Below are positions 6,432 to 37,867 of a DNA stretch of 64,000 nt, piece by piece (position 1 is the first letter of the stretch; every line of letters starts with the position of its first letter). The stretch covers positions 620,001-684,000 of the forward strand of contig NZ_JALGBH010000002.1 in the NCBI RefSeq assembly GCF_022809115.1. Direction: 5' to 3'. The notes under the pieces are model-generated. The model did no database searches and was not told the DNA's origin. It worked only from the letters and a program-made list of their open reading frames with translations. Source of the stretch: Pedobacter montanisoli. Its GTDB lineage: Bacteria; Bacteroidota; Bacteroidia; Sphingobacteriales; Sphingobacteriaceae. The position numbers and the translations under genes are program-made.

Positions 6432-6680
6432 ATGAAAAAAGATTTGCATCCATCAAGCTACAGATTTGTTGTTTTTAAAGATATGTCTAATGACTACGCT
6501 TTTTTAACTAAATCTTGTGTAGAAACTAAAGAAACAATTAAATGGGAAGATGGAAATGAATATCCATTATACAAATTAGAGATTTCTCATACTTCTCACC
6601 CTTTTTACACTGGTAAAATGAAATTGGTTGACACTGCCGGACGTATTGATAAATTCAAAAATCGTTACGCAAAAAAATAG
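6432..6680 (+). CDS. rpmE2: 50S ribosomal protein L31, type B
   Basis: An 82-residue protein that opens [17 protein letters not shown] and contains the L31 core HPFYTG and the C-terminal FKNRYAKK. It lacks the four zinc-binding cysteines of type A L31 and has the usual length of the type B form, which keeps L31 on the large subunit without zinc. It stands alone, with its own promoter-like element and a strong terminator 25 bases after the stop. The 5' region of about 280 bases back to the thiolase gene holds only the promoters and a long leader. Confidence 0.95.
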
Positions 6681-6704
6681 TCAGCTATTAATTGATAGAT
6701 ATTT

Positions 6705-6746
6705 AAAGTCTCGGGTGTATATACTCTCGAGACTTTTTTTATTTTT
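6705..6746 (+). terminator. Rho-independent terminator of the L31 gene
   Basis: A perfect 9-base stem AAAGTCTCG / CGAGACTTT (6705-6713 with 6728-6736) with a 14-base loop, followed by TTTTATTTTT. It lies between the L31 stop and the next gene start. Confidence 0.85.
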
Positions 6747-6753
6747 GTAACCT

Positions 6754-7926
6754 ATGAAAATCAATTTTTTTGATGATCAATCTTGGGAACGGTTAAGGCC
6801 TCTTACTTTTACGCGGCCGGTTGCCGACCTGAGGATAGGTATTTTGACCATTGCCGAAAAGTGGTCTAAACATCTTAATGCCAGCTCTTATGGCTATTGT
6901 ACACAGCCTTATCTAAGTGTCAAATACGCATCAATAGAGGCTGAGCTTTTTATCAATGGTTCGGTTTGCCCAAATAGTTATCTCGTAGATAAAATTACCA
7001 ATCTTAAAGAAAGCGAATATCTTTTGCATAAGCAATGTGTTATTGCGTATAGATGCAAAGAAAATGTTGCTTATCAATTGGTTGCAGAAAAGCTAACTCC
7101 TGTAACTGTAGAAAATAACTTCCTAAAAATAGAATACCCAGAGCATATATTTGGCTTTAACGATAAAGAACTGACAAATGATTTTAACTTGCTTACTAGT
7201 GGTAGAACTTCTGCTGCTATAAGTAGTACAAATACAATTTTAGGCGATCAGTTTTTTGCAGAAGAGGGAGCCATTGCCGAGTGTTCTACTTTTAACACTT
7301 TACAAGGACCTATTTATTTAGGTAAAAAGAGTGAAGTGTGGGAAGGGTGCCATATCCGAGGGTCATTTGCTTTATGCCATGATTCGCAGGTGAAAATGGG
7401 AGCCAAGATTTATGGAAAAACAACTATAGGGCCTTTTAGCCGTGTGGGAGGTGAGATTAACAATGCCGTAATCTGGGGCTACTCTTCTAAAGGGCATGAT
7501 GGTTATCTGGGTAATGCGGTTTTGGGGCAGTGGTGCAACATTGGTGCAGACAGCAATAACTCTAACCTGAAAAATAATTACGCTGAAGTTCGTTTATGGG
7601 ATTATACGGTAGAAAGCTTCAGAAAAACAGGCTTGCAGTTTTGCGGATTGATTATGGCCGATCATGCCAAATGTGCCATCAATACCATGTTTAATACAGG
7701 TACTGTAGTGGGCGTGAGCGCTAATGTTTTCGGGCCGGGTTTTCCACGTAATTTTATCCCTGATTTTGCATGGGGGGGAGCGCATGGTTTTGACATCTAT
7801 ACCATTCATAAAATGCTCGAAACAGCCAAATTGGTATTTGAAAGAAGAAATATCGTTTTAGACGAAACAGAGATAAATATATTAACACACATTTTTGATA
7901 TTACACAACCGTACAGACGTTTTTAG
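6754..7926 (+). CDS. GlmU-like putative sugar nucleotidyltransferase
   Basis: A 390-residue protein of the Bacteroidetes GlmU-like family: an N-terminal nucleotidyltransferase-like domain (opening MKINFFDDQSWERLRPLTFTRP) joined to a C-terminal left-handed beta-helix with hexapeptide-like repeats from about residue 185 (LGKKSEVWEGCHIRGSFAL and following). The architecture resembles enzymes that activate a sugar-1-phosphate and acetylate it. The classical N-terminal GxGxRM loop of GlmU is not visible, so the nucleotidyl transfer reaction is uncertain. It ends 3 bases before tpiA and opens the run GlmU-like, tpiA, prmA. Confidence 0.8.
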   Translation: MKINFFDDQSWERLRPLTFTRPVADLRIGILTIAEKWSKHLNASSYGYCTQPYLSVKYASIEAELFINGSVCPNSYLVDKITNLKESEYLLHKQCVIAYRCKENVAYQLVAEKLTPVTVENNFLKIEYPEHIFGFNDKELTNDFNLLTSGRTSAAISSTNTILGDQFFAEEGAIAECSTFNTLQGPIYLGKKSEVWEGCHIRGSFALCHDSQVKMGAKIYGKTTIGPFSRVGGEINNAVIWGYSSKGHDGYLGNAVLGQWCNIGADSNNSNLKNNYAEVRLWDYTVESFRKTGLQFCGLIMADHAKCAINTMFNTGTVVGVSANVFGPGFPRNFIPDFAWGGAHGFDIYTIHKMLETAKLVFERRNIVLDETEINILTHIFDITQPYRRF

Positions 7927-7929
7927 ATT

Positions 7930-8691
7930 ATGAGAAAGAATATTGTTGCAGGTAACTGGAAAATGAATTTAGACTATCAAGAGGGGATATCGCTATTTTC
8001 AGAAATTATAAATATGGTAAGAGATGAGCGAAAAGGCGATCAGATTGCCGTAATATGCTCACCGTTTATACATATAAACAGCTTAGTGCAACTTTCATCA
8101 GGTGTGGTAAAAATAGGTGCACAAAACTGTCATCAGAACGAGAGCGGAGCCTATACCGGCGAAATCTCTGCAAAAATGATCAGTTCAACCGGAGCTGAGT
8201 ATGTCATTATCGGACATTCAGAGCGTCGTCAGTATTTTGCAGAAAGCAATGCAGTTTTGGCAGAAAAAACCAATATAGCGCTTAAACATAACCTTAAACC
8301 TATATTTTGTATAGGAGAAACTTTGGATGAGCGTGAAAATGGCAGTTATTTCCATGTGATAGAAAAACAACTCGAAGAAGGTTTGTTCCATCTTTCGCCA
8401 GAGCAATTTGCTCATGTTATTTTAGCTTATGAACCTGTTTGGGCAATTGGAACGGGCTTAACAGCAACGCCAGAGCAAGCGCAAGATATCCATGCTTTTA
8501 TCAGAAATAAAGTAGATGTGAAATATGGTTTTAATATTGCAGATGATACCTCTATTTTATATGGAGGAAGCTGTAATCCTAAAAATGCAGAAGAACTATT
8601 TGCGCAGAAAGATATAGATGGAGGCCTGATTGGTGGAGCATCGTTAAAATCACGCGATTTTGTAGATATTGTTAAAACATTTAATGCCTAA
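7930..8691 (+). CDS. tpiA: Triose-phosphate isomerase
   Basis: A 253-residue TIM-barrel enzyme that interconverts dihydroxyacetone phosphate and glyceraldehyde-3-phosphate in glycolysis and gluconeogenesis. The substrate Lys is in AGNWKMN (residues 7-13), the electrophilic His in GHSERR (about residue 97), the catalytic Glu in AYEPVWAIGTG (about residue 170) and the phosphate loop in YGGS near residue 217. Length is normal. The stop overlaps the prmA start by one base, so translation is probably coupled. It also links glycerol catabolism to glycolysis, though the glp genes lie 35 kb away. Confidence 0.98.
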   Translation: MRKNIVAGNWKMNLDYQEGISLFSEIINMVRDERKGDQIAVICSPFIHINSLVQLSSGVVKIGAQNCHQNESGAYTGEISAKMISSTGAEYVIIGHSERRQYFAESNAVLAEKTNIALKHNLKPIFCIGETLDERENGSYFHVIEKQLEEGLFHLSPEQFAHVILAYEPVWAIGTGLTATPEQAQDIHAFIRNKVDVKYGFNIADDTSILYGGSCNPKNAEELFAQKDIDGGLIGGASLKSRDFVDIVKTFNA

Positions 8692-9527
8692 TGAATTATA
8701 CCAAAGTTAGTTTTACATTTAAGGATATAGAGGAATATCAGAAAGATTTGCTAATGGCCGATTTAGCTGATATAGGATTTGATAGCTTTGAAGATACTTC
8801 AGCAGGTTTCGATGCTTTTATTGCAGATGACCTCTTTAAAGAAGAGCAATTAGTTGAAGTAATTAGCGAGAATGAGGTTAGGGCTACTTATCAAGTTGAA
8901 CAGGTAGTTTCGCAGAACTGGAATGAAGAATGGGAAAAAAACTTTAGCCCCTTAATCATAACAGATGAATGCTATGTACGTGCAACCTTTCATGAGGCGC
9001 AAGCCCAGTACAAATATGAAATTGTAGTAGATCCTAAAATGGCTTTTGGTACAGGTCATCACCAAACTACAACCATGATGATGCAATACATATTGGAAAC
9101 CGACTTTACAGGTAAGGATGTTCTAGATATGGGAGCGGGAACAGGTATTTTGGGAATTTTAGCTGCAAAAAGAGGGGCTAAACATATCACTGCCATAGAT
9201 TATGATGATGTTTGTTATCAAAGTGCTATCGAAAATGCAGCATTAAATGAGGTAGCTAATTTAACTTCGCTTTGCGGAAGTAAAGAAGCTATTCCTCAAC
9301 ATACATATGATATTATTTTAGCCAATATCAACAGAAATATTTTATTAGATCAAATGGATGCCTATGTAAATGTATTGGCAAAAAATGGTTTAATATTCTT
9401 TAGTGGTTTTTACGAAGAAACAGACCTGGATATGATCAGACAAGCAGCCGAAAAGTTAGGACTTGCTTATGTTGATCATAAGAACTTAAACAATTGGGTG
9501 GCAGCCCAATTTGTTAAAGCTAATTAA
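8691..9527 (+). CDS. prmA: Ribosomal protein L11 methyltransferase
   Basis: A 278-residue SAM-dependent methyltransferase that trimethylates L11. The SAM-binding motif VLDMGAGTGILGILAAKRGA is near residues 144-163, preceded by the family-specific FGTGHHQTTTMM (about 122-133), and the active-site motif LANINRNIL near residue 208 is the NxN-type motif of the family. The N-terminal 90 residues form the L11-recognition region. It follows tpiA with a TAATG overlap. Confidence 0.93.
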   Translation: MNYTKVSFTFKDIEEYQKDLLMADLADIGFDSFEDTSAGFDAFIADDLFKEEQLVEVISENEVRATYQVEQVVSQNWNEEWEKNFSPLIITDECYVRATFHEAQAQYKYEIVVDPKMAFGTGHHQTTTMMMQYILETDFTGKDVLDMGAGTGILGILAAKRGAKHITAIDYDDVCYQSAIENAALNEVANLTSLCGSKEAIPQHTYDIILANINRNILLDQMDAYVNVLAKNGLIFFSGFYEETDLDMIRQAAEKLGLAYVDHKNLNNWVAAQFVKAN

Positions 9528-9557
9528 GGTTTAATTTTCTGTTTAAAAAGAATAACA

Positions 9558-10910
9558 ATGAGAGTTCATTTTATAGCCATAGGTGGAGCAGCTATGCACA
9601 ATTTAGCTATTGCTCTGCATAAAAAAGGTTTTTTGGTTACAGGTTCAGATGATGTGATTTTTGAACCTTCAAACAGCAGACTGGCTAAATATGGCCTGCT
9701 GCCCACAGAAATAGGTTGGCATGAAGAAAATATCACTACTGATATCGATGCCGTAATTTTAGGTATGCATGCCCGTGTTGATAATCCTGAGCTACTTAAA
9801 GCGCAAGCATTGGGATTAAAGATTTACTCTTATCCCGAATATATATACGAGCAGTCGAAAAATAAGACCCGTGTGGTAATAGGAGGTAGCCATGGTAAAA
9901 CTACCATTACTTCAATGATCTTGCACGTGCTCAATTATTACCAGAAAGATTTTGATTATTTGGTAGGTGCACAGCTTGCTGGCTTCGATACCATGGTAAA
10001 GATTACCGATAGCGCTCCGGTTATTATTATAGAAGGAGATGAATATTTGGCTTCTCCTATAGACAGGCGACCTAAATTCCATCTATATAAAGCTAATATT
10101 GCCATTTTAAGTGGTATAGCTTGGGATCACATCAATGTTTTTCCAACTTTTGAGAATTATGTTGAGCAGTTTGCCAATTTTTTAACAACCATTGAGCCTA
10201 AAGGAAAAGTAATCTATTGCGAAACGGATGAAGTGCTGAAACAAACCGTTGAGACTTCTGCTGCAAATATTGTTAAAATACCTTACCAAATTCCTTTACA
10301 TGAAGTAAAAAATGGAATTACTTATCTTTTACCTGAACATACACCTTTAAAAGTATTTGGAGATCATAACCTGATGAACCTCAATGCCGCACGTATGGTT
10401 TGCAGGGAGTTAGGGATTAGTGAAACTGAATTTGATAAGGCAATCTCAACTTTTACGGGTGCTGCTAAACGCCTCGAGCTATTAAATGCTGTAAACCAGA
10501 CCAATGTCTATAAAGACTTTGCGCATTCGCCCTCAAAACTGAAAGCGACTATACAAGCGGTTAAAGCTCAGTTTCCAGACAGAGAACTTGTGGCCATGAT
10601 AGAGTTACATACCTTTAGCAGTTTGAATAAAGATTTTCTAAAAGAATATAAAGATGCCATGAAAGATGCAGATGTAGCCATGGTGTACATAGATGACAAG
10701 ACGTTTTTGATCAAAAGGATGGAGCCTTTAACAGAAGATGATATTCAAACGGCATTTAATGACAAAGCTATTATGTTCTTTAATAATCCAGTCAAACTGG
10801 AAGCTTATTTAAGAAGCTTTGATTTTCGTAACAAGAATCTGTTGCTGATGAGCTCTGGTAATTATGCGGGTATGGACTTGCCAAAACTCGCTGCCGAAAT
10901 TAAATCGTAG
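9558..10910 (+). CDS. mpl: Mur ligase family protein, Mpl-like (murein tripeptide recycling ligase)
   Basis: A 450-residue three-domain Mur ligase. The N-terminal Rossmann-like part opens MRVHFIAIGGAAMHNLA; the ATP-binding P-loop GGSHGKTT is near residues 109-116; EGDEY near residue 157 and the DHN(V/I)-type segment WDHINVFPTFE follow; the C-terminal ligase domain holds DFAHSPSKL, corresponding to the DDFAHHP segment of Mpl. Mpl joins recycled L-Ala-gamma-D-Glu-meso-Dap to UDP-MurNAc, whereas MurC adds L-Ala; the length and sequence of this protein fit the Mpl branch. A downstream XRE gene starts 5 bases after the stop. Confidence 0.8.
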   Translation: MRVHFIAIGGAAMHNLAIALHKKGFLVTGSDDVIFEPSNSRLAKYGLLPTEIGWHEENITTDIDAVILGMHARVDNPELLKAQALGLKIYSYPEYIYEQSKNKTRVVIGGSHGKTTITSMILHVLNYYQKDFDYLVGAQLAGFDTMVKITDSAPVIIIEGDEYLASPIDRRPKFHLYKANIAILSGIAWDHINVFPTFENYVEQFANFLTTIEPKGKVIYCETDEVLKQTVETSAANIVKIPYQIPLHEVKNGITYLLPEHTPLKVFGDHNLMNLNAARMVCRELGISETEFDKAISTFTGAAKRLELLNAVNQTNVYKDFAHSPSKLKATIQAVKAQFPDRELVAMIELHTFSSLNKDFLKEYKDAMKDADVAMVYIDDKTFLIKRMEPLTEDDIQTAFNDKAIMFFNNPVKLEAYLRSFDFRNKNLLLMSSGNYAGMDLPKLAAEIKS

Positions 10911-10915
10911 TTAAA

Positions 10916-11263
10916 ATGCCGCAAACCCCCTTAGTTAAAGAGATAGGCAAAAACATTAGGCAACTGCGTTTAGATGCAGATAAAGGCCAGACAGAGGTTG
11001 CCAAAGCTTTGGATATTTCGGTTGCGGCACTTTCAAAAATAGAATCTGGATTAACGGACCTTAATATTTCACGCTTAGCACAGATTGCTAAATATTTTAA
11101 GGTGTCTGTTATTTCTATCATATCTAAAGATATTGTAAGTGGGGCTTCACAAGACTTGGTAGAAAAATTATCACAGTTAAAAAATAAACTGGCCGACAAG
11201 GACAGAGAAGTGATGAAACTACAGCAAAAAGTAATTTCTTTATACGAAAAACTCGGTATTTAA
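10916..11263 (+). CDS. Small XRE-family helix-turn-helix regulator
   Basis: A 115-residue DNA-binding protein. Residues about 8-65 form an HTH_3 (Cro/C1) domain: IGKNIRQLRL, the turn-helix TEVAKALDISVAALSKIESG, and LTDLNISRLAQIAKYFKVS. The tail (residues about 78-113) is heptad-like and rich in Leu, Lys and Glu (LSQLKNKLADKDREVMKLQQ), consistent with a short coiled coil for dimerisation. It starts 5 bases after the Mpl-like gene, so it is most likely in the same operon. Its target is unknown. Confidence 0.88.
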   Translation: MPQTPLVKEIGKNIRQLRLDADKGQTEVAKALDISVAALSKIESGLTDLNISRLAQIAKYFKVSVISIISKDIVSGASQDLVEKLSQLKNKLADKDREVMKLQQKVISLYEKLGI

Positions 11264-11323
11264 TTAACATTGATTTAACAATTCTCACTCATTAAAGCTT
11301 TAAATTTACTTAGCTAAAAATTA

Positions 11324-11908
11324 ATGATTATGAGTAAGAAAATTTTAATGTTAGCCGGCGACTTTGTAGAAGACTATGAAGTGATGGTTCCTTTTCAGGC
11401 TTTACTATCTGTAGGTTTGAGTGTTGATGTGGTTTGTCCGGATAAAAAAGCAGGAGAAACAGTACCAACTGCCGTTCACGATTTTGTAGGCGATCAGACT
11501 TATTGTGAGCTTCGTGGTCATAATTTTATGTTGAACAAGAGCTTTGATGAAGTAAACCTTGCAGATTATGATGGTTTGTATGTTTGTGGAGGCAGAGCCC
11601 CTGAATACATCCGCTTAAATGAAAAAGTACTGGAATATACTCGCCATTTCTTCAATGAAAATAAGCCAGTTGCAGCAATTTGTCATGGCATACAAGTTTT
11701 AACCGCAGCAGAGGTTTTAAAAGGAAGAACATTAACTGCTTATGTTGCAGTAGGCCCTGATATTAAACTGGCAGGAGGTACATGGAAAAATATTCCTGCA
11801 GACCAGGCTGTAGTTGATGGTAATTTAGTAACCTCACCTGCATGGCCAGGACATCCTGCTATCTTAAAAGAATTTTACAAGCTTTTAGGAATAACCATAA
11901 ATATGTAA
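11324..11908 (+). CDS. DJ-1/PfpI family protein
   Basis: A 194-residue class I glutamine amidotransferase-like protein of the DJ-1/PfpI superfamily. The nucleophile-elbow Cys lies in [10 protein letters not shown] (about residue 121) and the conserved upstream Glu in [11 protein letters not shown] (about residue 17). Members include deglycase/glyoxalase-like and stress proteins; the substrate here is unknown. The start could be the first ATG or the ATG two codons later ([11 protein letters not shown]), which better matches relatives. A convergent pair of genes meets downstream at a long palindromic hairpin. Confidence 0.88.
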
Positions 11909-11914
11909 GTAGAA

Positions 11915-12025
11915 AGGCTGTTCAATTTACCCTGCGTCATTCTGTACTTGATATGGAATCTATTTATTTAAGTTCCTGAAACGAGTTCAGAATGATAGAT
12001 AAAAATATATTGAACAGCCTCTTTT
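11915..12025. terminator. Long palindromic bidirectional terminator with an internal REP-like hairpin
   Basis: The outer arms AGGCTGTTCAAT (11915-11926) and ATTGAACAGCCT (12009-12020) pair perfectly over 12 bases and are followed by CTTTTT on the plus strand. Inside lies a second imperfect palindrome beginning GTCATTCTG and ending CAGAATGA (to 11995). It separates convergent genes at 11908 and 12025. Confidence 0.7.
11974..11995 (+). repeat. REP-like intergenic repeat, copy A
   Basis: TCCTGAAACGAGTTCAGAATGA, built on the small palindrome CTGAA-ACGAG-TTCAG. Copy B at 44234-44255 matches 20 of 22 positions and a weaker copy C lies at 37969-37988. All three are intergenic. Confidence 0.6.
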
Positions 12026-13143
12026 TAAATATCTACCCTTAAGGTCAAATGCTTTTTGCCAAATCGGGCGCCGGTTGCTTCATGTATGGCCAGCATTTTT
12101 TCGTTAAAATCGCCTACCCATGAAAGCTCCAGCTCATCGTACTGATTTTTGGGTATCACGTATTCTTTAAGCTTAATGAATAATGCCGATTCCAGGCCAT
12201 GTTTCTGATAAGCCTGTTTGGTTCCCATTACAATGGCACGCATACGGTTAATGCCTTTCCAGCGTCTATACGCAAATTTTAACTTCTGTAACAGCCCTAA
12301 TTTGCCGTTAAAACCTTTGATCATTTGGTTGGCATCCGGAATAATTACAACAAAAGAAGCAGGTTCGCCATTAGAATAAGCAAACCAGATCAGCTTTTCA
12401 TCCATGATTACTTCCATCTGTTTAAAACTCTCTTCCAAAGTTTCTCTTTTTATAGGAACGAAGTTTTCAAAATCTTTCCAGCCATCATTATAAATCTCCA
12501 TTAAATCAGAAATGTATTTACTGGCATTCGATTTTTGAAAATGTTCGAAGCTGTAAGCTGGTTTAGATGCAACCCAATTGGCAATTTTAGTAAAGCGCTC
12601 AGGAAAAGGTATCCTAATATCAATGATATTGGTTAATTGCTCATAAGCCGTTTTAAAGCCATAATTAGTAAACAGGTTATGGTAATAAGGTAAATGATAA
12701 TTCATGCCGTACGAAGCAGGGGTAAACCCCTCTACCAACAAACCCCAGAAAGAATCATTCTCGCCAAAATTTATAGGTCCTTCCATTACCTCAATGTTTC
12801 GTTCTTTTAACCAGGCTTTTGCCGTATCAAAGAGCACATTAGCGGTATCTTGTTGATTTATGCTTTCAAAAAAGCCTATGCCACCCGTAGGTTTTTCATA
12901 AAGATGCGCTTTCTTCTGGTTTATAAATGCAGCTATGCGGCCAACGGTATTCCCTTGTTTGTCTTCCAGTATCCATCTGGTGCACTCGCCATGTTTAAAA
13001 AAAGGATTGGCATGTTGATCAAAAACCTTTTCTATATCCTGATCTAAAGGTCTTATATAGTTTGGGTCGTTTTTGTACAACTCTTCAACTATATTTAAGA
13101 AACGTTGCTGTGTTGATCTGTCTTTTACTTCGGTAACTTTCAT
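12025..13143 (-). CDS. GNAT-like acyltransferase family protein of unknown substrate
   Basis: A 372-residue soluble protein resembling the YghO-like family, usually annotated as N-acetyltransferase-like in Bacteroidetes. The N-terminus has a conserved opening (VEELYKNDPNYIRPLDQD) and a glycine-containing GGIGFFES strand; the C-terminal part (from about residue 230) looks like a GNAT fold, with WFAYSNGEPASFVVIIPD, the helix KHGLESALFIKLKEY and LELSWVGDFNEKMLAIHEATGA. No substrate can be assigned. It begins 38 bases before a strong hairpin and stands alone between terminators. Confidence 0.65.
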   Translation of the reverse strand: MKVTEVKDRSTQQRFLNIVEELYKNDPNYIRPLDQDIEKVFDQHANPFFKHGECTRWILEDKQGNTVGRIAAFINQKKAHLYEKPTGGIGFFESINQQDTANVLFDTAKAWLKERNIEVMEGPINFGENDSFWGLLVEGFTPASYGMNYHLPYYHNLFTNYGFKTAYEQLTNIIDIRIPFPERFTKIANWVASKPAYSFEHFQKSNASKYISDLMEIYNDGWKDFENFVPIKRETLEESFKQMEVIMDEKLIWFAYSNGEPASFVVIIPDANQMIKGFNGKLGLLQKLKFAYRRWKGINRMRAIVMGTKQAYQKHGLESALFIKLKEYVIPKNQYDELELSWVGDFNEKMLAIHEATGARFGKKHLTLRVDI

Positions 13144-13180
13144 TTACTCCGGTTTAAACTTTAGAATGGCAAAAGTTAAT

Positions 13181-13218
13181 AAAATAAAAAGCATCCTGAA
13201 AGGGATGCTTTTTATTTT
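13181..13218 (-). terminator. Rho-independent terminator of the acidic small protein gene
   Basis: A perfect 16-base inverted repeat (arms 13181-13196 and 13203-13218; core AAAAAGCATCC / GGATGCTTTTT) with a 6-base loop. It lies just past the stop of the minus-strand gene at 13233-13430. Its symmetric A/T flanks would also stop plus-strand transcripts. Confidence 0.85.
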
Positions 13219-13232
13219 ATGCTGATTTTAGA

Positions 13233-13430
13233 TTAATAATCGTCATCGTCGTCATCAAAACTTTCGAAGGTATCTAAATCATCAAGCGGCATGTCAAAGT
13301 CATCTTCGTCTTCATCTTCGTAACTTTTGTCCGCGGTTACATCATCATCATCAAAATCGTCGTCTAAGTCTTCTTTTGATTTAGGCTTACTTGTTGGTTT
13401 GTTCGGAATAGATTTTTTAGGCGTTTTCAT
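13233..13430 (-). CDS. Small highly acidic protein
   Basis: A 65-residue protein with a basic N-terminal third (MKTPKKSIPNKPTSKPKSK) and a C-terminal two thirds made almost wholly of Asp and Glu with interspersed Phe, Tyr and Leu (DDDFDDDDVTADKSYEDEDE and on to the end). No fold or family is recognisable and it is probably disordered. Such small acidic proteins are common in Bacteroidetes, but their role is not known to me. It has its own terminator at 13181-13218 and a possible TAnnTTTG element on the minus strand at 13535-13542, about 100 bases upstream. The remaining upstream gap is AT-rich with no other feature. Confidence 0.7.
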   Translation of the reverse strand: MKTPKKSIPNKPTSKPKSKEDLDDDFDDDDVTADKSYEDEDEDDFDMPLDDLDTFESFDDDDDDY

Positions 13431-13693
13431 AACACAAAAAAATAGTTAAAATATTCGAAAGTTGTATGCTTAGTTAAAATTAAGAAAATCTTTTCTAAAG
13501 TAGAAAGTTCTTTTCCTGTTTCGTTTACGGGTGCCAAAATTATAATAAAAACCGCTTCTGTGAAATTTTTTTTAAAATTTTTAAAACGATATTTAATGTC
13601 ATTAAAAACGGGTTTTTATAGGGAATATTTTTAAGGTGTAAATAAAAAAAGAAGATTTTAAAATAAGAAAGAAGCGTATTGTTCTATATATGC

Positions 13694-14350
13694 TTAATGA
13701 TAAGGTATATAGTTATGCAGACTTAAATCTTCCATACTGTTGATGGCATAATTAGACCCGTTTTTAAGTAGCATGATCTCGGTAGAAATATCGATAATAT
13801 CACGGTAATAATGATCAGTGATCACAAATGCTTTGTGCTGTTTTAGCAATAAGATATGTTTTTTGATTTCCTGGATCATAACTGGCGACAATTGAGAGAA
13901 GGGTTCATCTAAAAGAACAAAATCTGCATCGCTGTATATTGTCAGAATTGCTTCAACTAAGCGAACTGTACCGCCTGATAAAGTGGCTATCTTACTTTTG
14001 AGATGCTGTTGTATGAGCTTGATATCGAGTAGCTCTTTTTTATACCTGTTGCAAAGTAAATTGATGATAGTTTCTAATTTTAATTGTTGTGGCAAGAAAG
14101 GATGTTGTGGCAGATAAGCTATCTGTTGTGTAAGGTATGCGGGTTTTTTAATCATCTTACCGTTTAATTTAAGGTAAATATGATCTGCTTTGATACTCCC
14201 AAATATACATTTTAGCAAGGTTGATTTTCCGCAACCATTTCTGCCTAATATTCCTTTTATGTCGCCTGTGTTGCATTGCAGATGCACACCATTAAGCACA
14301 TTCTGGTTTTTAAAATGATGAGAAACACTATCTACATATAGTTCTGGCAT
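13694..14350 (-). CDS. Orphan ABC transporter ATP-binding protein
   Basis: A 218-residue ABC ATPase. Walker A is GRNGCGKS (about residues 37-44), the Q-loop AYLPQHPFLP near 74-83, the signature LSGGT near 120, Walker B VLLDEP near 143 and the switch His in VITDHYYRD near 176. All catalytic motifs are present, although the signature is LSGGT rather than LSGGQ. No permease gene adjoins it: the upstream neighbour is the end of a histidine kinase gene and the downstream one the acidic small protein. The transporter partner or a non-transport role is therefore unknown. Confidence 0.9.
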   Translation of the reverse strand: MPELYVDSVSHHFKNQNVLNGVHLQCNTGDIKGILGRNGCGKSTLLKCIFGSIKADHIYLKLNGKMIKKPAYLTQQIAYLPQHPFLPQQLKLETIINLLCNRYKKELLDIKLIQQHLKSKIATLSGGTVRLVEAILTIYSDADFVLLDEPFSQLSPVMIQEIKKHILLLKQHKAFVITDHYYRDIIDISTEIMLLKNGSNYAINSMEDLSLHNYIPYH

Positions 14351-30529: not shown

Positions 30530-31051
30530 ATGTTTAGGATATCTCTAGCACTTTCTTTTATTATTCTGATAACCATAAAACAACAGTGTTTTGCACAGAA
30601 AATTGTTTTTAACTGGGGAACTCAACAAGCTGATTTAAATTACAATGAATGTTATCAATCATTAATAAAACTAAATTTAGGAACAACAAAAACTAAAGAA
30701 TTAGCTGATTGTATATTTGGTAAATTGAAGTCTAAGTTTCCTAAAGGTGTTAACTTGGATACTAATCAATTTATAGAAATCATTAAGCAACTAATGAAAA
30801 GTTGCTTTTATGAACAAAATGTTCAAGACGAATTACCCTTTTTTTGGAATGAGCAATATTTAAAGGGATTTAGGGTAGCAATGTTGAAATCTATGCCTTT
30901 TGAATTTTCTGAAGACCAAAAAAATAAGCTGTTTGATTGTGCTTTAAAAAAATTAAAGGAAAAATATCCCAATGATGGATTTAAAATTGCTGAAATAAGA
31001 AAGGATTTTGAAAAGATAGCTAAAGATTGTGAGTTAGAAATAATTAAATAA
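30530..31051 (+). CDS. Secreted protein with an internal duplication and paired cysteines
   Basis: A 173-residue protein with signal peptide (cleavage probably after CFA). I do not recognise the family. The mature part is two similar helical halves, each with a Cys in a 'DC' context, a Lys-rich helix, then a second Cys about 30 residues later: LADCIFGKLKSKFPKG to MKSC, and LFDCALKKLKEKYPND to AKDC. The spacing suggests one disulfide per half. It lies between guaB and a terminator at 31083-31114. Confidence 0.7.
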   Translation: MFRISLALSFIILITIKQQCFAQKIVFNWGTQQADLNYNECYQSLIKLNLGTTKTKELADCIFGKLKSKFPKGVNLDTNQFIEIIKQLMKSCFYEQNVQDELPFFWNEQYLKGFRVAMLKSMPFEFSEDQKNKLFDCALKKLKEKYPNDGFKIAEIRKDFEKIAKDCELEIIK

Positions 31052-31082: not shown

Positions 31083-31114
31083 AAAAAGGGCATCTTATTG
31101 ATTGCCCTTTTTTT
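31083..31114 (+). terminator. Rho-independent terminator
   Basis: AAAAAGGGCA (31083-31092) pairs with TGCCCTTTTT (31103-31112) over 10 bases with a 10-base loop, followed by further T. It ends the guaB-side unit and isolates the cluster that starts at 31211. Confidence 0.85.
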
Positions 31115-31210
31115 GTTAACTGTAGTTGCTTAAAAAGCCAAAATATTTTTTTTCAGGAGACGTAGGGGTAGGTGTACACTTTGTTGTCTTGTATTTAAAT
31201 AAGATACAAG

Positions 31211-32293
31211 ATGAAGAAATCATACTACACACAAATGTCAAAACAATGCCTTAAAGCAGCGGTATTTATATTATCGTTTGTGGGCATTGTTAAAAATGTA
31301 AGCGCACAGAATACCCAAACATTTAAGGCCAATATTGGGCTGGTATATCCTTTGAGCACAAATGGAACCCATGCTCCTTTAGATACCAACAACCTTTCTC
31401 TTAATTTAATAGCAGGTGTTTCATCGGCAGAAAATGGCAGCTCTTTTGCGGGTTTATCTAATGTAGTCCGTCACTATACCAAAGGTGCACAATTTGCAGG
31501 TTTTTCAAATCATATCGGAACCGAAGCAAACGGTGCTGTATTTGCCGGATTTTTAAATACCTATCGTTCAGCAAAAGGTGTACAGTTTGCTGGTTTTGCC
31601 AATGTAGCCCAAAATAATGTAACCGGAGCACAGTTTGCAAGCTTTATCAATACGGTAAAAGACCTCAAAGGCAGTCAGTTTGCTGGTTTTATTAATGTCT
31701 CCAAAAATGTAGAAGGTAACCAGTTTGCCGGTTTTATCAACGTTGCTAAGAATGTAAAAGGCATACAAGCTGCAGGTTTTATCAATATTGCTGAAAACAG
31801 CGACTTCCCGATAGGTATCATCAATCTGGTTAAAAATGGAGAGAAAAGCATAGCTGCAACCATTGATGATGACCAAACGTCTATGCTAACGTTCAGGTCG
31901 GGCGGAAAATATCTGTATGGTATTATAGGTGTGGGCTATAATTTTAAAAATAAAGAAGAAATCTATGCCTTTGAAGCTGGTTTAGGAGCACACTTCTTCC
32001 AGTCGAGGCATTTCAGGTTAAATACAGAACTGGTACAGGGAATGTTGGAAAGTTTTGAGAGAGGAGAATATATAAAAAGTACGTTAAGGGTATTGCCAGC
32101 ACTTAAAATCACTAAATCGTTCGAGATTTTTGCAGGGCCTTCTTTGAATTTTGTTTCAACGAACAGTCCAGAAGGTTTATTGCTTCATTCCGAAGGCAAT
32201 AGAAATGTTCTCCACACCTGGAACAACCGTTGGTCTGATTACAGACAGACTTTGTACGTAGGGTACCAAGCTGGTTTAAAGGTTATTTTTTAA
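31211..32293 (+). CDS. Secreted 'GxQFAGFxN' repeat protein
   Basis: A 360-residue secreted protein (signal peptide about residues 1-32 ending SAQ). Residues about 76-211 are roughly nine tandem repeats of 16 residues with the pattern K-G-x-Q-F-A-G-F-x-N-x-x-x-x (for example KGVQFAGFANVAQNNV, KGSQFAGFINVSKNV, EGNQFAGFINVAKNV), similar to the LA_2272-type surface repeat, and each could form a beta-hairpin or helix-like coil. The final repeat runs into a C-terminal domain (IGIINLVKNG, RSGGKYLYGIIGVGYNF, FAGPSLNF) that also occurs in the STN-domain protein at 36077-37867. The role is unknown. It opens the gene cluster and lies 28 bases before the next gene. Confidence 0.8.
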   Translation: MKKSYYTQMSKQCLKAAVFILSFVGIVKNVSAQNTQTFKANIGLVYPLSTNGTHAPLDTNNLSLNLIAGVSSAENGSSFAGLSNVVRHYTKGAQFAGFSNHIGTEANGAVFAGFLNTYRSAKGVQFAGFANVAQNNVTGAQFASFINTVKDLKGSQFAGFINVSKNVEGNQFAGFINVAKNVKGIQAAGFINIAENSDFPIGIINLVKNGEKSIAATIDDDQTSMLTFRSGGKYLYGIIGVGYNFKNKEEIYAFEAGLGAHFFQSRHFRLNTELVQGMLESFERGEYIKSTLRVLPALKITKSFEIFAGPSLNFVSTNSPEGLLLHSEGNRNVLHTWNNRWSDYRQTLYVGYQAGLKVIF

Positions 32294-32321
32294 AAGAATT
32301 TAATACATAAAATATAAACAC

Positions 32322-32987
32322 ATGAAAAGAACATTATATCTAAATATGGTACTGGTCTTAAGTTTAATTTTAACCTTTACCGCATGTAAAAAAGAAGTAA
32401 TCACCGCAAATGGCCATGTTGTTTCAGAAGATAGAAATGTAGGTCAGTTTACAGGACTTAACTCGGACGGCAGTACGCCGGTTCGCATCAAATATGGGAT
32501 ATCCTATAATGTAAGAATAAAAGGATCTACAAATATCATCCCTTATTTTACCACCCGTGTAGTAAACAATAAACTCAATATTGGTTTTGACAACGCATAC
32601 ATCAGGCATGATGATATTGAAGTGGAGATTACGATGCCAACTTTTAACAGGATTTTATTGAGCGGAAGCGGAAAAGTTGAAATAGAAGGTGCTTTTGAAA
32701 CGCTGCCTTTTCTAAACATAGGTGTAAGCGGGTCAGGAGATGTGCTATTGAACAATTACCTAGATGCTCATGAGGTTGACATAGAAATCTCGGGATCGGG
32801 TAAGGCCGATTTTAAAAAGCTAAATGCAAAATATGCAGATGTTAGTATATCAGGTAGTGGTCATGCTTTTGTACAGGTAGAAGAGAAATTGAAAGCCCAC
32901 ATCAGCGGTAGCGGGAAAATATATTATGCCGGAAATCCGCTTATAGAGCAATACATCAGTGGTAGCGGAAAAGTAATCAGATTTTAA
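32322..32987 (+). CDS. DUF2807-type (head GIN domain) lipoprotein
   Basis: A 221-residue lipoprotein: the lipobox is LTFTAC with the modified Cys at residue 22 (followed by KKE). The mature part fits the DUF2807 / head GIN domain family, a right-handed beta-solenoid-like fold. Six SGSG turns recur at regular spacing (LLSGSGKVEI, GVSGSGDVLL, EISGSGKADF, SISGSGHAFV, HISGSGKIYY, YISGSGKVIR). It is probably at the outer membrane or cell surface. It lies 28 bases after the repeat protein and 17 bases before the desaturase-like gene, so is in the same operon. Confidence 0.88.
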   Translation: MKRTLYLNMVLVLSLILTFTACKKEVITANGHVVSEDRNVGQFTGLNSDGSTPVRIKYGISYNVRIKGSTNIIPYFTTRVVNNKLNIGFDNAYIRHDDIEVEITMPTFNRILLSGSGKVEIEGAFETLPFLNIGVSGSGDVLLNNYLDAHEVDIEISGSGKADFKKLNAKYADVSISGSGHAFVQVEEKLKAHISGSGKIYYAGNPLIEQYISGSGKVIRF

Positions 32988-33004
32988 GCATTAATAATGG
33001 ATTT

Positions 33005-34492
33005 ATGGTTGCTCAGTTTAATTGGTCGGTTTTAGGTTCTGTTTTTGGAGCCGAAAAGCTTTCGATAGACGAACTCTATCATCTGCAAAATAACGTTCCC
33101 AATCTCATGGTATATGCGCTACCTTTGGTTGTTGTATTTACCGTACTTGAGTTTGTGCTGTCAAAAATCTTTAAGCATGAGGATTTTCAGGCTCAGGAAC
33201 TAAAAGGTTCATTATTTGTTGGTTTAGGAAACTTAATCGTCAATTTACTGCTAAAATCAGCCTTGTTAATGGGGGCGGTATGGCTGTACAATTTATTACC
33301 TTGGCGCATACATTTTAGCTGGTTAAGTCTTATTCCCTGTTTTATCATTTACGATTTTTGTAGTTACTGGTCGCACCGCATCTCGCACTTTAACCGTTTT
33401 TTCTGGGCATCGCATGTGGTACATCATTCTGCCGAACATTATAACCTTACCGTTGCTTTCAGACAAAGCTGGGTACAGCATGTTAAAATTGTTTTCTTTA
33501 TTCCGGTAGCTTTATGTGGTTTTCATCCCATCATATTTTTATTGGCTAGCCAGTTAAGTACATTATACCAGTTTTGGGTACATACAGAAACCATAGGTAA
33601 GCTTCATCCGTTTATTGAAAAGTATTTGGGTACACCGTCTAATCATCGTGTACATCATGGCAGTCAGGAAAAATATATAGATAAGAATTTTGGTGCTACG
33701 TTCATGATGTGGGATCATTGGTTCGGCACATTTCAATACGAAGAAGAAAAACCCAGATATGGACTTACCACACCTCTTGCCGAAAAAGGCAATCCTTTTG
33801 TACTTAATTTTCACGAATATCGAGATATTGTTAAGGATATCAGGCAAAGTAACAGCTTAAGAGAAATATTGTTTTTCCTGTTTGCGAGCCCTGCAAAAAT
33901 ATATCGCTATAAATCCTCTGAAATAAGGAAAGTAAAAACACAAAAACTAAATTACTTGTATGCCACTATAGTAGTGCTTACTCTTTTGATCATAGGACAA
34001 TGTGCTTTTGCACAGGATAGATTGCCCGAGCCTAAATTGAAAAACCTGTTGTTCTTTCTTCAGCGTACGCCCGATGCCAATACGGTGGTTTACCAACTTA
34101 ACTACAATCAATATGGAACCTTAGATACCAAAGTGCCTATAAAAGCTTCGTGGATCAGATACGAAGAGAACGGGATTTACAAGGATCTGACCAATATAGA
34201 AAAGAAACTGGCTTATGGTGTGCAATGCAAATACATAGGAAACGATGCTTATGAGGTACGGTTGGTATCATATAAGAAACTGCCAATGTACCTGCTCAAA
34301 TCTAAAGAAGATCAGCAACATAAACTTTATATTAAAGAAGAAGGGAAAGACTTGTTGCTAAAACGCGTTTTTGTTAAAGTAGAAAAAAATACTTTTATGT
34401 TTCCAAGAGTTCAATATATAGATTTGTTTACGGTTGATAGTGATAACGGACATGAAATACTAAAAAGAATTAACATAGCACAGGCTAACTAA
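33005..34492 (+). CDS. Fatty acid hydroxylase/sterol desaturase fused to a periplasmic DUF4833-like domain
   Basis: A 495-residue fusion. The first 300 residues are a membrane fatty-acid-hydroxylase/sterol desaturase protein with the di-iron His clusters HRISHF, HVVHHSAEHYN, HTE and NHRVHHG. From about residue 313 there is a second hydrophobic segment that looks like a signal peptide (YATIVVLTLLIIGQCAFAQD) followed by about 155 soluble residues (PEPKLKNLLFFLQRTPDANT, YWIRYEENG-type motif as SWIRYEENGIYKDL) that resemble DUF4833. The reading frame is continuous. The enzyme probably modifies a lipid or carotenoid; the soluble part would face the periplasm. It is translated in the same operon as the GIN lipoprotein. 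Confidence 0.8.
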   Translation: MVAQFNWSVLGSVFGAEKLSIDELYHLQNNVPNLMVYALPLVVVFTVLEFVLSKIFKHEDFQAQELKGSLFVGLGNLIVNLLLKSALLMGAVWLYNLLPWRIHFSWLSLIPCFIIYDFCSYWSHRISHFNRFFWASHVVHHSAEHYNLTVAFRQSWVQHVKIVFFIPVALCGFHPIIFLLASQLSTLYQFWVHTETIGKLHPFIEKYLGTPSNHRVHHGSQEKYIDKNFGATFMMWDHWFGTFQYEEEKPRYGLTTPLAEKGNPFVLNFHEYRDIVKDIRQSNSLREILFFLFASPAKIYRYKSSEIRKVKTQKLNYLYATIVVLTLLIIGQCAFAQDRLPEPKLKNLLFFLQRTPDANTVVYQLNYNQYGTLDTKVPIKASWIRYEENGIYKDLTNIEKKLAYGVQCKYIGNDAYEVRLVSYKKLPMYLLKSKEDQQHKLYIKEEGKDLLLKRVFVKVEKNTFMFPRVQYIDLFTVDSDNGHEILKRINIAQAN

Positions 34493-34506
34493 AGTTGCCA
34501 AACTTC

Positions 34507-34514
34507 TATATTTG
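34507..34514 (+). promoter_or_regulatory. -7 element just before the ECF sigma gene
   Basis: TATATTTG matches TAnnTTTG fully and lies 14 bases before the GTG start, in the 36-base gap after the hydroxylase gene. No -33 TTG is at the right distance. It could give the sigma/FecR genes their own transcript. Confidence 0.35.
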
Positions 34515-34528
34515 AACCAGTAATTAAC

Positions 34529-35095
34529 GTGAATACCACTACAGGAACATATAACGATAGCGCATTTGAGCAGTTGTTTAAAGCCAACTATAAGGCCTTG
34601 CATGCCTATGCCCATATGATATTAAAAGATGAAGAAACTGCCGAAGAAATTGTGCAATCCATGTTCTTAAAACTATGGGAAAAACGATATCTTTTGGAAA
34701 CGCAGAATTCTGTGAAAGCATATCTGTATAGATGTATTTATAACGATAGCCTTAACTTTTTGAAACATGAAAAAGTTAAAGTAAAATACCAGGATTTTAC
34801 AGTACATACCATGGATACGCATAGCCTTTCTGCATCACATAAAATAGAGCTTTCAGAATTGCAAAACCAATTGAAAAAAGCATTGAATGAGCTACCTGAA
34901 CAATGTAGAACCATATTTCAGTTAAGCCGTTTTGAAGAATTAAAATATAAAGAAATAGCCGAACAACTAGGCATTTCAATTAAAACGGTAGAAAACCAGA
35001 TGGGTAAAGCACTTAAGATACTACGCTCAAAACTGGTAGATTTTATGGTACTGTTGCTATTGGGATTAGGGAATTATCATGATTATTTAAATTAA
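34529..35095 (+). CDS. ECF-subfamily RNA polymerase sigma-70 factor
   Basis: A 188-residue ECF sigma factor of the FecI-like Bacteroidetes type. Region 2 covers residues about 10-80 (FEQLFKANYKALHAYAHMILKDEETAEEIVQSMFLKLW) and region 4 about 115-175 (LNELPEQCRTIFQLSRFEEL and YKEIAEQLGISIKTVENQMGKAL). The start is GTG at 34529; no upstream ATG is in frame nearby. The FecR anti-sigma gene follows 10 bases later. In such pairs the sigma factor is held by FecR until an outer-membrane partner reports a ligand. Confidence 0.95.
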   Translation: MNTTTGTYNDSAFEQLFKANYKALHAYAHMILKDEETAEEIVQSMFLKLWEKRYLLETQNSVKAYLYRCIYNDSLNFLKHEKVKVKYQDFTVHTMDTHSLSASHKIELSELQNQLKKALNELPEQCRTIFQLSRFEELKYKEIAEQLGISIKTVENQMGKALKILRSKLVDFMVLLLLGLGNYHDYLN

Positions 35096-35105
35096 GCAAA
35101 ACGAT

Positions 35106-36080
35106 ATGGATGATGAATTATTGATAAAGTTTCTGCTTAAAGAAACCTCTGAAAAAGAAAATGCCGAAGTACAGGACTGGATTAGTGCTGATGGGGAAAA
35201 TGAAAAATATTTTAAACAGCTTGAACAGATCTGGAATGAGAGTGCTGGTTTGGCAATTCAGTCTTCGGTAGATGAAGAGCTGGCCTGGCAAAAATTTAAA
35301 ACAAGAGTAGTCCCAAAAGAAGAAAATATACTGCCTGCTCAGTTAAAAGTAAAACGAAATAACAGTAATTTAAAATGGTTAAGCATAGCTGCAACGCTAT
35401 TTATTGTGGCAGGCGCATGGTTAGTTTACAGTTTGATAGGTAGTGGCTACACAGAAGTTTCAAGCGAGGCCTTGGTCGTGAATAAGGCATTGCCAGATGG
35501 GTCTCAACTGGTGCTAAATAAAAATACCACACTTAGTTACGCAGATGATTTTAAGCAAAACCGCAAAGTATTGCTATTAAGAGGAGAGGTGTTTTTTGAT
35601 GTGGCACATGACCGCTCACATCCCTTTACCATTTCAATGGATCAGGTAAATGTACGAGTAGTAGGTACTTCTTTTAACATCAAACGAAATGCAAACAGTA
35701 TAGAGGTAATTGTAGAAAGCGGTGTAGTTAAGGTTAAGAAAAACCAGAGCGAAATAAGCTTGGTAAAAGGTGAAAGAATAACTATAGGTACTGATGCTAA
35801 GGCACAACTTGTAAAACAGGTCAATGAAGACGAATTGTATAATTATTACCGTACGCAGCTTTTTGTAGCCCGTAATACGCCGCTTTACAGATTGGTAAAT
35901 GTACTTAACGAGGCTTATGGCGTACAGATTGTACCTGCTGATGATATTAAAGGGTTAAGGATATATACAACCCTTCCGTTCAATAACCTAGATAAAAACC
36001 TGAATAATATATGTGATGCATTAGATTTGGAAATACAGCGTAACCAAAACCAGATTTTGTTGTCTAAAAAACGTAAATGA
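35106..36080 (+). CDS. FecR-family anti-sigma factor
   Basis: A 324-residue membrane anti-sigma factor. The N-terminal cytoplasmic part (about 1-90) binds sigma; one membrane helix lies near residues 98-116 (SIAATLFIVAGAWLVYSLIG). The FecR periplasmic domain follows with NKALPDGSQLVLNKNTTLSY, RGEVFFDVAHDRSHPFTI and NVRVVGTSFNIKRNANSIEV. The C-terminal DUF4974 region (YNYYRTQLFVARNTPLYRLV) is typical of Bacteroidetes FecR. Its stop overlaps the next gene start by four bases (ATGA), so the STN-domain protein is its likely partner. Confidence 0.95.
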   Translation: MDDELLIKFLLKETSEKENAEVQDWISADGENEKYFKQLEQIWNESAGLAIQSSVDEELAWQKFKTRVVPKEENILPAQLKVKRNNSNLKWLSIAATLFIVAGAWLVYSLIGSGYTEVSSEALVVNKALPDGSQLVLNKNTTLSYADDFKQNRKVLLLRGEVFFDVAHDRSHPFTISMDQVNVRVVGTSFNIKRNANSIEVIVESGVVKVKKNQSEISLVKGERITIGTDAKAQLVKQVNEDELYNYYRTQLFVARNTPLYRLVNVLNEAYGVQIVPADDIKGLRIYTTLPFNNLDKNLNNICDALDLEIQRNQNQILLSKKRK

Positions 36081-37867
36081 GAACCAGACTATTATTCTTT
36101 ATCATCCTATTTTTTAGCTGTTTTTTAGCCCAGGCGCAAACCGCTGTAAATTACAATCAGAGCAATTTAGCCAAAAGAGTAACCTTAGATCTTAAATATA
36201 ATCGTATAAGCGATGTATTACAGAAAATAAGCAATGCAGGAAAATTTTACTTCGCTTATAATGGGGCCTTGTTCAAACAAGACAGCGTAGTTAACCTCAA
36301 TGTAAAAAATATAGCTGTGCGTGATGTATTGGACCAGCTTTTTGAAGGTAAAGTAGCTTATAAAGAAAACGAGGAATATATCATTTTAAGGTATGCTGCA
36401 AATCGGTTTTCTATAGAGGCAGAAAGTATTGTTACAGCAGAAAACCTTTATGCTATTACCGGTTATGTGGTAGATATACAGACAGGTAAAAGAGTAAAAA
36501 ATGCCAGTGTCTATGAAAAACGCTTATTGCAATCGGCGCTTACGGATGAAGAAGGTACTTTTAACCTCAAATTTAAGGGTGAGCATAAATCAATTGTATT
36601 AACGGCAAGTAAAGAGAATTACCGTGATACATCTCTTGTATTTTTATCCAGTATAAATGTAAAACCTCAGGGCTATGATGATCCCGATAAGGAAAAAGGA
36701 ACGCTTTTTTCAGATATGCTGGATAACTTTCGTATAAGCCGTTGGTTTACTTCTTCAAAGCAACGTATTCAAAATATTAACATACCCAATTTTTTAGCCA
36801 ATATGCCTATACAAGCCTCTTTAACACCGGGTTTAAGCTCGCAGGGTAAAATGAGTACAAGTGTAGTCAATAAATTTTCGTTAAATCTTATAGGCGGTTA
36901 TACAGCCGGAGTTGACGGTATGGAGATCGCAGGAGTTTTTAATCTTGACAAAGGAAATGTACAATATGTACAGGTGGCAGGTGCATTTAATGTGGTGGGA
37001 GGATTGACCAAAGGCGTGCAAATAGCAGGAGCATTAAATATAAACGGACAAGATGTTAAAGGTGTTCAGGTATCGGGTGCTTTTAATAATGTGCAGCGAA
37101 ACATGGAGGGTGTACAAGTATCAGGTTTAAATTATGTAAGACGTTCAGCAAAAGCAGTTCAGATATCGGCCGTAGGAAATATTATAACCGATGACCTGCA
37201 AGGTTTACAGATTACCGGAATTGGTAATGTTGTAAGTAAAAACACAAAAGGGGTTCAAATAGCAGCTTTGGGTAATATCACATCAGGATTAATGCGAGGG
37301 ATACAGATATCGGGTATTTTTAACTATGCCAAGTCAAATAAAGGTTTGCAGATCGGGTTGATTAATGCGGCTGATTCTTCATCTGGCGTTAGTTTAGGCT
37401 TGTTTAATTTCGTTAAGAACGGTTATCATAAAATCAGCATTTCTTCAAATGAATTGATTAATGCCAACATAGCTTTTAAAAGTGGCAATGCCAACCTGTA
37501 CACCATATTTATGTTGGGCAAGAACTTTGTTAAAGATGAAAATATAGAAACCTTTGGTTTGGGATTTGGACATGATTTTTTTGCAGGAAAACTGTTTTCT
37601 GTGGCTGCTGAGCTAAGTGCCCAACATCTTTACCTCGGGCAGTGGGACTATGTCAATATTTTAAACAAATTTCAGCTTAACCTACAATTCCGTGTTTTTA
37701 AAGGATTGAGTATATACGGTGGGCCTGTTGCCAATTATTATGTGACCAATGCTCCTGCAGATTATAGGAGTCCTGTAGGCTACAAACAAATAGATCCTGC
37801 TAATAGTAAAATCATCAGAGGTCACAAGGGCTGGTTAGGATGGAATGCAGGAATTACTTTGTTTTAA
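36077..37867 (+). CDS. STN-domain surface protein with a GVQ(V/I)SG repeat array
   Basis: A 596-residue secreted protein (signal peptide residues 1-20). After it comes an STN (secretin/TonB short N-terminal) domain at about 32-110 (RVTLDLKYNRISDVLQKISN), the module by which FecA and SusC receptors contact FecR. A carboxypeptidase-regulatory-like domain follows (ITGYVVDIQTGKRVKNASVY, about 132-190). Then, instead of a TonB plug and 22-strand barrel, there are about eleven 16-residue repeats between residues about 277 and 450 (KGVQVSGAFNNVQRNM, KGVQIAALGNITSGLM) and a C-terminal domain (NFVKNG, KSGNANLYTIFMLGKNF, IYGGPVANYY) also present in the protein at 31211. I infer a non-transporting FecR partner. 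Confidence 0.8.
   Translation: MRTRLLFFIILFFSCFLAQAQTAVNYNQSNLAKRVTLDLKYNRISDVLQKISNAGKFYFAYNGALFKQDSVVNLNVKNIAVRDVLDQLFEGKVAYKENEEYIILRYAANRFSIEAESIVTAENLYAITGYVVDIQTGKRVKNASVYEKRLLQSALTDEEGTFNLKFKGEHKSIVLTASKENYRDTSLVFLSSINVKPQGYDDPDKEKGTLFSDMLDNFRISRWFTSSKQRIQNINIPNFLANMPIQASLTPGLSSQGKMSTSVVNKFSLNLIGGYTAGVDGMEIAGVFNLDKGNVQYVQVAGAFNVVGGLTKGVQIAGALNINGQDVKGVQVSGAFNNVQRNMEGVQVSGLNYVRRSAKAVQISAVGNIITDDLQGLQITGIGNVVSKNTKGVQIAALGNITSGLMRGIQISGIFNYAKSNKGLQIGLINAADSSSGVSLGLFNFVKNGYHKISISSNELINANIAFKSGNANLYTIFMLGKNFVKDENIETFGLGFGHDFFAGKLFSVAAELSAQHLYLGQWDYVNILNKFQLNLQFRVFKGLSIYGGPVANYYVTNAPADYRSPVGYKQIDPANSKIIRGHKGWLGWNAGITLF

Follow-up and report, generated by a model that had tools for sequence, protein, structure and literature searches.

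The window analysed here is a stretch of 64,000 nucleotides from Pedobacter montanisoli (GCF_022809115.1, contig NZ_JALGBH010000002.1, positions 620,001 to 684,000 of the forward strand). Six same-strand genes at 31211-37867 quite probably form a self-inducing cell-surface signalling system of the FecI/FecR type, whose transducer is not a TonB receptor. The STN-repeat protein STNR takes that role in our reading, as a small 8-stranded barrel on a periplasmic beta-solenoid that carries STN and CarbopepD domains. The system works like FecR cell-surface signalling but is not a standard FecI/FecR member, because the Plug and the large barrel that identify a TonB receptor are missing from the transducer. 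New here are a TAGGGGT-N13-GTTGTC promoter, predicted from conservation and covariation, and the small-barrel STN transducer, seen in structural models.

STNR is supported as the partner of the adjoining FecR, since the sigma-FecR-STNR triad is conserved, the FecRs linked to STNR fall in one clade and the other six FecRs of this genome are paired with TonB receptors. Comparison of loci likewise supports that the STNR-linked sigma factor reads TAGGGGT-N13-GTTGTC. This factor probably transcribes its own operon, joined in relatives by a regulon of envelope genes, and the operon appears to be self-inducing via its own promoter. A sequence-only reading of this DNA had proposed STNR as the outer partner of FecR and the sigma factor as controlling the cluster, and the comparative evidence favours both proposals; its observations were confirmed and its interpretation is partly supported. 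The features, in window numbering, are as follows (ECF, extracytoplasmic function; aa, amino acids).

31163..31188, + strand: predicted ECF promoter TAGGGGT-N13-GTTGTC (footprint, exact match, fixed spacing)
31211..32293, + strand: R, 360 aa, STNR paralogue without STN; predicted beta-solenoid at about 40-204 and 8-stranded barrel at about 208-360
32322..32987, + strand: GIN-domain (DUF2807) putative lipoprotein with six SGSG (Pfam E 8.5e-30; lipobox and SGSG read in translation)
33005..34492, + strand: fatty-acid-hydroxylase-type membrane enzyme fused to DUF4833 (FA_hydroxylase E 6.5e-26, DUF4833 E 2.5e-43)
34529..35095, + strand: ECF sigma factor, Bacteroidota FecI-like subfamily (TIGR02985, 183 bits, cut-off 126)
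34994-34996, + strand: codon of sigma residue 156, recognition helix, covarying with the promoter in the sigma-promoter comparison
35106..36080, + strand: FecR anti-sigma factor (FecR PF04773, E 7.9e-19, 68 bits, cut-off 24)
35862-36059, + strand: FecR_C, the STN-like C-terminal domain of FecR (PF16344, E 9.5e-6, 26 bits, cut-off 24.4)
36077..37867, + strand: STNR; signal peptide, STN at about 25-108, CarbopepD at about 109-195, then, in the AlphaFold model, a low-confidence linker (192-264), a beta-solenoid (about 265-446) and an OmpA-like barrel (447-596)

The intergenic gaps do not exceed 36 nt. The six open reading frames (ORFs), the ATGA overlap between fecR and STNR and the GIN lipoprotein with six SGSG between the two repeat genes had all been described in the sequence-only reading and were found again.

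Conservation of the sigma-FecR-STNR triad

In the family survey, STNR matches at E 1e-20 were found in 55 of 151 genomes, the one in G024 being limited to residues 392-559. In all sixty loci fetched from 53 of the other matching genomes, sigma and FecR genes are present; 59 have them upstream in the orientation of STNR, and one has them inverted nearby. Together with the window and the named genomes, 141 STNR loci were collapsed by their last 150 STNR residues to 114 distinct ones, and the sigma-FecR pair is directly upstream of STNR in 107 of these. Among the exceptions, the pair is inverted nearby in L068, L153 is at a contig edge, and L156 has an opposite-strand ORF of 83 codons in between. 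From a phylum sample of 395 genomes, 59 of them with an STNR match at E 1e-30, we fetched 15 loci; 13 contain the triad, L344 has FecR without a detected sigma, and L330 has neither. The R, GIN and fatty-acid hydroxylase (FAH) genes vary between loci while the order sigma-FecR-STNR stays. At the STNR loci examined (STNR-less genomes fall outside this check), we did not find the arrangement that would speak against the pairing, a fecIR beside a normal SusC with the repeat proteins elsewhere, although an R gene lies far from STNR in one genome (G057).

The window genome contains 7 FecR genes, of which six precede STN-CarbopepD-Plug receptors and the seventh precedes STNR. Its eight STN proteins are those six receptors, one lone secretin and STNR. 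We compared 37 of the 45 FecRs of four genomes, the loci of the other 8 not having been fetched: an STN+Plug protein follows 32 of them, STNR follows 4 (one per genome), and the remaining one (L210) is followed by an STN protein whose plug score is weak. In a FecR tree, the 45 chosen STNR-linked rows (44 of them different) fall into a single clade (100/98), separate from the TonB-linked FecRs. A wider tree places 37 of 38 STNR-linked rows in one group and has the FecRs of L344 and G056 at the base under weak support; both trees were made from a hand-picked spread of loci. The distances of STN and FecR_C show a small partial correlation of 0.16 (0.04-0.27), against 0.50 in the positive control between sigma and the anti-sigma domain, and the values for CarbopepD, solenoid and barrel range from -0.12 to 0.03.

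Several observations speak against the main reading. The partial correlations between the FecR middle part and STN (0.17) and between FecR_C and sigma (0.22) show that the STN-FecR_C signal is weak. Four Flavobacterium loci (L169, L170, L172 and L173) have STNR without adjoining sigma or FecR, as does L330 (G459), where the neighbours are similar. The best sigma matches in the G459, L169 and L172 genomes reach 32-38% identity, versus 39-76% in family triads, so the sigma orthologue is seemingly missing there. Moreover, no R is found nearby at 42 of the 114 loci. The Flavobacterium cases, and an STN score under the Pfam cut-off in the window, could mean that chance or a shared envelope function alone has brought these genes together, with STNR not signalling through the adjoining FecR. 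We consider this very improbable, given the pair directly upstream at nearly all loci of both samples, the single FecR clade, and a triad order that is the same at loci with and without R, GIN and FAH.

The predicted promoter upstream of R and its probable sigma factor

When the window and 12 close relatives are aligned, TAGGGGT-N13-GTTGTC is the single strongly conserved block just 5' of the R start, and the window copy (31163-31188) ends 22 nt before R. For the 114 loci, we scored the promoter as TA[AG]GGGT-N13-GTTGT[CA]. Exact copies are upstream of R in 51 of 72 cases, of sigma in 7 of 121 and of other genes in 18 of 1231, with none upstream of GIN (0/36), FAH (0/31), FECR (0/113) or STNR (0/114). 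With up to one mismatch, the counts become 58/72 for R, 17/121 for sigma, 31/1231 for other genes, 1 for STNR and 0 for GIN, FAH and FECR. Only spacing 13 gives exact sites upstream of R: spacings of 6-12 and 14-23 gave zero. Among the 18 exact sites at other genes, 11 belong to a gene of 221-238 aa upstream of sigma-FecR-STNR (DUF6134, representative L156) and 2 to TonB receptors of a 787-aa family.

The third base of the -35 element follows sigma residue 156. It is G with Asn156 in 77 of 77 loci and A with Ala, Gly, Ser, Val, Tyr or Thr in 15 of 15, the A-type loci being nine from one clade plus five other lineages, each single or paired. Residue 156 is the highest-scoring sigma column among those filled in 90% of rows. 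Judging by sequence context, it sits in the region-4 recognition helix, whose role in promoter reading is well established. On a tree built without column 156, base and residue undergo five changes each, and in all three independent pairs on supported branches they change together. Both promoters of L086 and both of L091 are A-type. Covariation of a -10 base with sigma columns was dropped as evidence, since its A-type looks mostly clade-bound.

This assignment has its weak points. The independent changes are few, with 3 supported ones and a sign test p of 0.25, too few to reach 0.05, and 22 of the 114 loci stay outside the covariation (21 have no site, and 1, at a contig edge, has no sigma gene). 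In G057, the STNR-linked sigma is A-type, yet the distant R (L289, G057:C21:54977-61002) has a G-type site.

In the window genome, the exact motif occurs once and four sites are found at up to one mismatch, so a large regulon there was rejected. At up to 2 mismatches, 32 sites were found versus 83 for the reversed pattern, and since the reversed pattern gives more, the weaker sites are uninformative by count. A sigma-70 promoter for the operon found no support, promoter-like sites being at chance level (28 vs 26.0). At about 31083-31114, 5' of the promoter, a hairpin with a T run can be read in the sequence; a scan did not report it.

Repeats and predicted fold of R and STNR

R is homologous to the C-terminal 350 residues of STNR (hhalign E 2.3e-53, 327 columns), which agrees with the matching C-terminal regions noticed in the sequence-only reading; R itself has zero domain matches in the Pfam/NCBIfam scan. 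The tandem repeats reported for both proteins were also recovered, with 5 strict motifs in STNR and 7 in R versus shuffle means of 0.19 and 0.12 and a shuffle maximum of 3 (2000 shuffles). Their supposed common length of 16 residues holds for STNR only, since R has mainly a period of 15, and one of the seven R motifs (residue 322) falls outside the repeat region. The repeat sequences have no significant relative in the PDB by sequence search.

The window STNR scores below the Pfam cut-offs for STN (21.6 bits, cut-off 28.4) and for CarbopepD_reg_2 (28.0 bits). Among 47 aligned STNR proteins, STN is matched in 37 and CarbopepD_reg_2 in all 47 (E 0.001). The STN part of the STNR model resembles the secretin periplasmic domain 3gr5 (Z 8.8, 3.3 Å, 81 residues), and the model also matches the solved SusC N-terminal extension 9hfj, so the proposed STN domain was borne out. 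No Pfam match to Plug was found in the window STNR and none is listed among the 47 relatives.

AlphaFold models were made from 47 (STNR) and 44 (R) sequences, with mean predicted local distance difference test (pLDDT) values of 82 and 88.5. In both, a beta-solenoid is predicted to be followed by an 8-stranded outer-membrane barrel of OmpA/OprF type. On the OprF N-terminal barrel (4rlc), residues 448-596 of the STNR model align with VIA-align Z 13.9 and 2.6 Å, and residues 209-360 of the R model with Z 15.8 and 2.5 Å, 122 residues being aligned in each case. The earlier statement that STNR has no TonB plug or barrel is thus right as far as TonB parts go, yet a small barrel is predicted at the end of each protein. 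Outer-membrane barrels usually end in Phe. This is the last residue of both window proteins and of 55 of the 72 R proteins of distinct loci, the other 17 ending in Leu. The solenoid comes before barrel strand 1, which would place it in the periplasm, and repeats on the cell surface are unlikely in these models. VIA-align matches of the solenoid (GlmU type, about 10 Å; Tapirin, 3.0 Å/181; phage tail fibre, 3.4 Å/197) show a beta-helix arrangement in the models, with a handedness that they do not fix.

The fold assignment meets some difficulties. The barrel leans on VIA-align geometry and AlphaFold, Foldseek matches of STNR in the PDB all have E of at least 0.013 with none under 0.001, and the STNR C-termini are varied, 68 of 114 being Phe. 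Nothing useful came from searching BFVD with R. In genomes outside the class of the window, the listed matches of some ORFs (about 390-530 aa) extend over the solenoid-barrel part of STNR only.

Proposed signalling route, putative regulon and possible source of the signal

Accounts of FecR signalling usually couple it to TonB-dependent import. The closest known systems are FecA-FecR-FecI and FoxA-FoxR-FoxI, together with the SusC-type FecIR systems of Bacteroidota. STNR is predicted to have a beta-solenoid and an 8-stranded barrel where the Fec and Fox partners have a plug and a large TonB barrel. We suggest an arrangement as in FoxA-FoxR, in which STNR replaces the receptor and R accompanies it without an STN of its own. 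In the periplasm, the STN of STNR would contact FecR at its STN-like C-terminus, by analogy with FoxA/FoxR and PupB/PupR. An outer-membrane change in R, STNR or a partner could then alter this contact, and FecR would be cleaved. The freed sigma would transcribe from TAGGGGT-N13-GTTGTC promoters, as footprint and covariation suggest; the position of the motif points to its own six-gene operon as the target here and to envelope genes as further targets in relatives.

Before any signal arrives, the FoxA signalling domain is bound to FoxR and shields it from proteolysis (PMC11637429). An ECF sigma, a FecR with an STN-like C-terminus, an STN-bearing outer-membrane partner and autoregulation are features of FoxA-FoxR-FoxI (PMC11637429). 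FecA-FecR-FecI and the SusC-type systems are alike in this; the window system has the first two, its STN-bearing partner is predicted to be in the outer membrane, and autoregulation is predicted for it. VreA-VreR-VreI (PUMA3) of Pseudomonas aeruginosa also has an STN-bearing partner that is not a TonB-dependent receptor; VreA is mostly soluble, and its C-terminal domain is TolA/TonB-like (PMC2729926). STNR, in contrast, is predicted to be in the outer membrane and is spread over several Bacteroidota families; its C-terminal half is predicted to be solenoid and barrel, and neither Pfam nor the listed fold matches showed a TolA/TonB-like domain. The STNR repeats score 30.6 (cut-off 25) with the model of LA_2272 family surface repeat proteins (NF047436), which is a 30-residue repeat only, without the signalling module of STNR. 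No description of STN-repeat proteins as FecR partners or of the TAGGGGT-N13-GTTGTC promoter was found in the literature accessible in part to us, which leaves most subscription papers uncovered and is no proof of absence.

The exact promoter is present in 24 of the 55 family genomes with an STNR match versus 2 of the 96 without (Fisher p 1e-10). In all 151, there are 37 exact sites versus 18 for the reversed control, and 13 of the 37 are away from STNR. These 13 are not commoner than the control, a point against the main reading. Nine of them precede families that recur beside STNR (STN-less TonB receptor, 4; 189-aa OMP_b-brl_2 barrel, 2; R, GIN and lipid A acyltransferase, 1 each). The other four are before a lipoprotein reading like an alpha/beta hydrolase, before a 164-aa protein, or have nothing near. 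In the two STNR-less genomes, the site precedes a GIN gene (G056) or has no same-strand ORF found after it (G067). Motif positions support R, the STN-less TonB receptor, GIN, lipid A acyltransferase and small barrels as putative sigma targets in relatives.

The STN-less receptor family (787 aa) has CarbopepD and Plug but no STN. At full size (776-851 aa), it lies within 6 genes of STNR at 10 of the 114 loci and, as two ORFs, at one more; a longer form of 892-895 aa stands behind its own sigma-FecR pair at two loci (L084, L085). In these two loci, the second sigma-FecR pair and the receptor are a few kilobases from the STNR cluster. In the phylum sample, the receptor is found within 3 genes of STNR at 8 of 15 loci. 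It carries the promoter both near and far from STNR in relatives, and the window genome has one member (L345, G000:C1:695732-698032, 40% identity) with no recognisable promoter copy in the fetched flanks. In G056 (L329, G056:C35:15000-32000, at 6251-14201), a sigma-FecR pair is followed by two 787-family receptors of 881 and 872 aa. Their N-termini are STN-like (STN and FecR_C matches), and the GIN gene with the exact promoter lies about 8 kb from them and from the pair. This locus is possibly an unsplit form of the system.

Because the STN-less receptor shares the promoter and G056 has STN-bearing receptors, a serious rival is that STNR is the detached signalling half of the STN-less receptor and still reports an imported ligand. 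Recurrence of the receptor near STNR (13 of 114 loci counting all forms), its member in the window genome and the G056 FecR basal to the STNR clade fit this idea, which we nevertheless hold to be unlikely: the receptor is absent from the window operon and from most of the 114 loci, the window genome's copy lacks the exact promoter, co-regulation does not make it part of the sensor, and the basal position of G056 is weakly supported (95/75 and 95/42). Two findings speak against the earlier description of a non-TonB system in its strict form: a number of relatives have an STN-less TonB receptor near STNR or governed by the shared promoter, and in one relative, G056, STN is fused to a receptor of that type.

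A second rival is an envelope signal, for which the lipid and barrel genes of the operon and the putative regulon speak. The folding or the lipid surroundings of the small barrel would then be what is sensed, in a phylum-specific outer-membrane stress response. The products concerned are envelope proteins (barrels, GIN, fatty-acid hydroxylase/DUF4833, lipid A acyltransferase) and the transducer itself is a predicted barrel, with R and STNR of the window ending in Phe and all 72 R proteins in Phe or Leu. Ligand-sensing systems also target envelope genes, and TonB receptors are among the putative targets; this explanation is possible at best. It is doubtful that the system is, as a whole, a widespread Bacteroidota outer-membrane homeostasis response. 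In that reading, the condition of the outer membrane would be registered by a dedicated small barrel with a beta-solenoid in the periplasm, and barrels, GIN lipoproteins, lipid-modifying enzymes and a TonB receptor would be controlled via FecR and a single ECF sigma that recognises TAGGGGT-N13-GTTGTC. If our main reading is true, a widespread lineage with a small non-TonB barrel transducer would uncouple signalling from import. The promoter gives a direct handle on the regulon, poorly understood envelope families (R, GIN, DUF6134 and FAH-DUF4833) are suggested to share one response, and an outer-membrane stress pathway in Bacteroidota becomes a testable question.

The genome carrying the window has 3.29 Mb, and the nearest named relatives of its STNR are from Pedobacter. 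The OlsE (ornithine lipid hydroxylase) model gives the FA_hydroxylase-DUF4833 fusion 48.7 of 475 bits, far under the cut-off. At 30530-31051, 5' of the promoter, a small protein with a signal-peptide-like start is encoded, and its p25-alpha match is sub-threshold.

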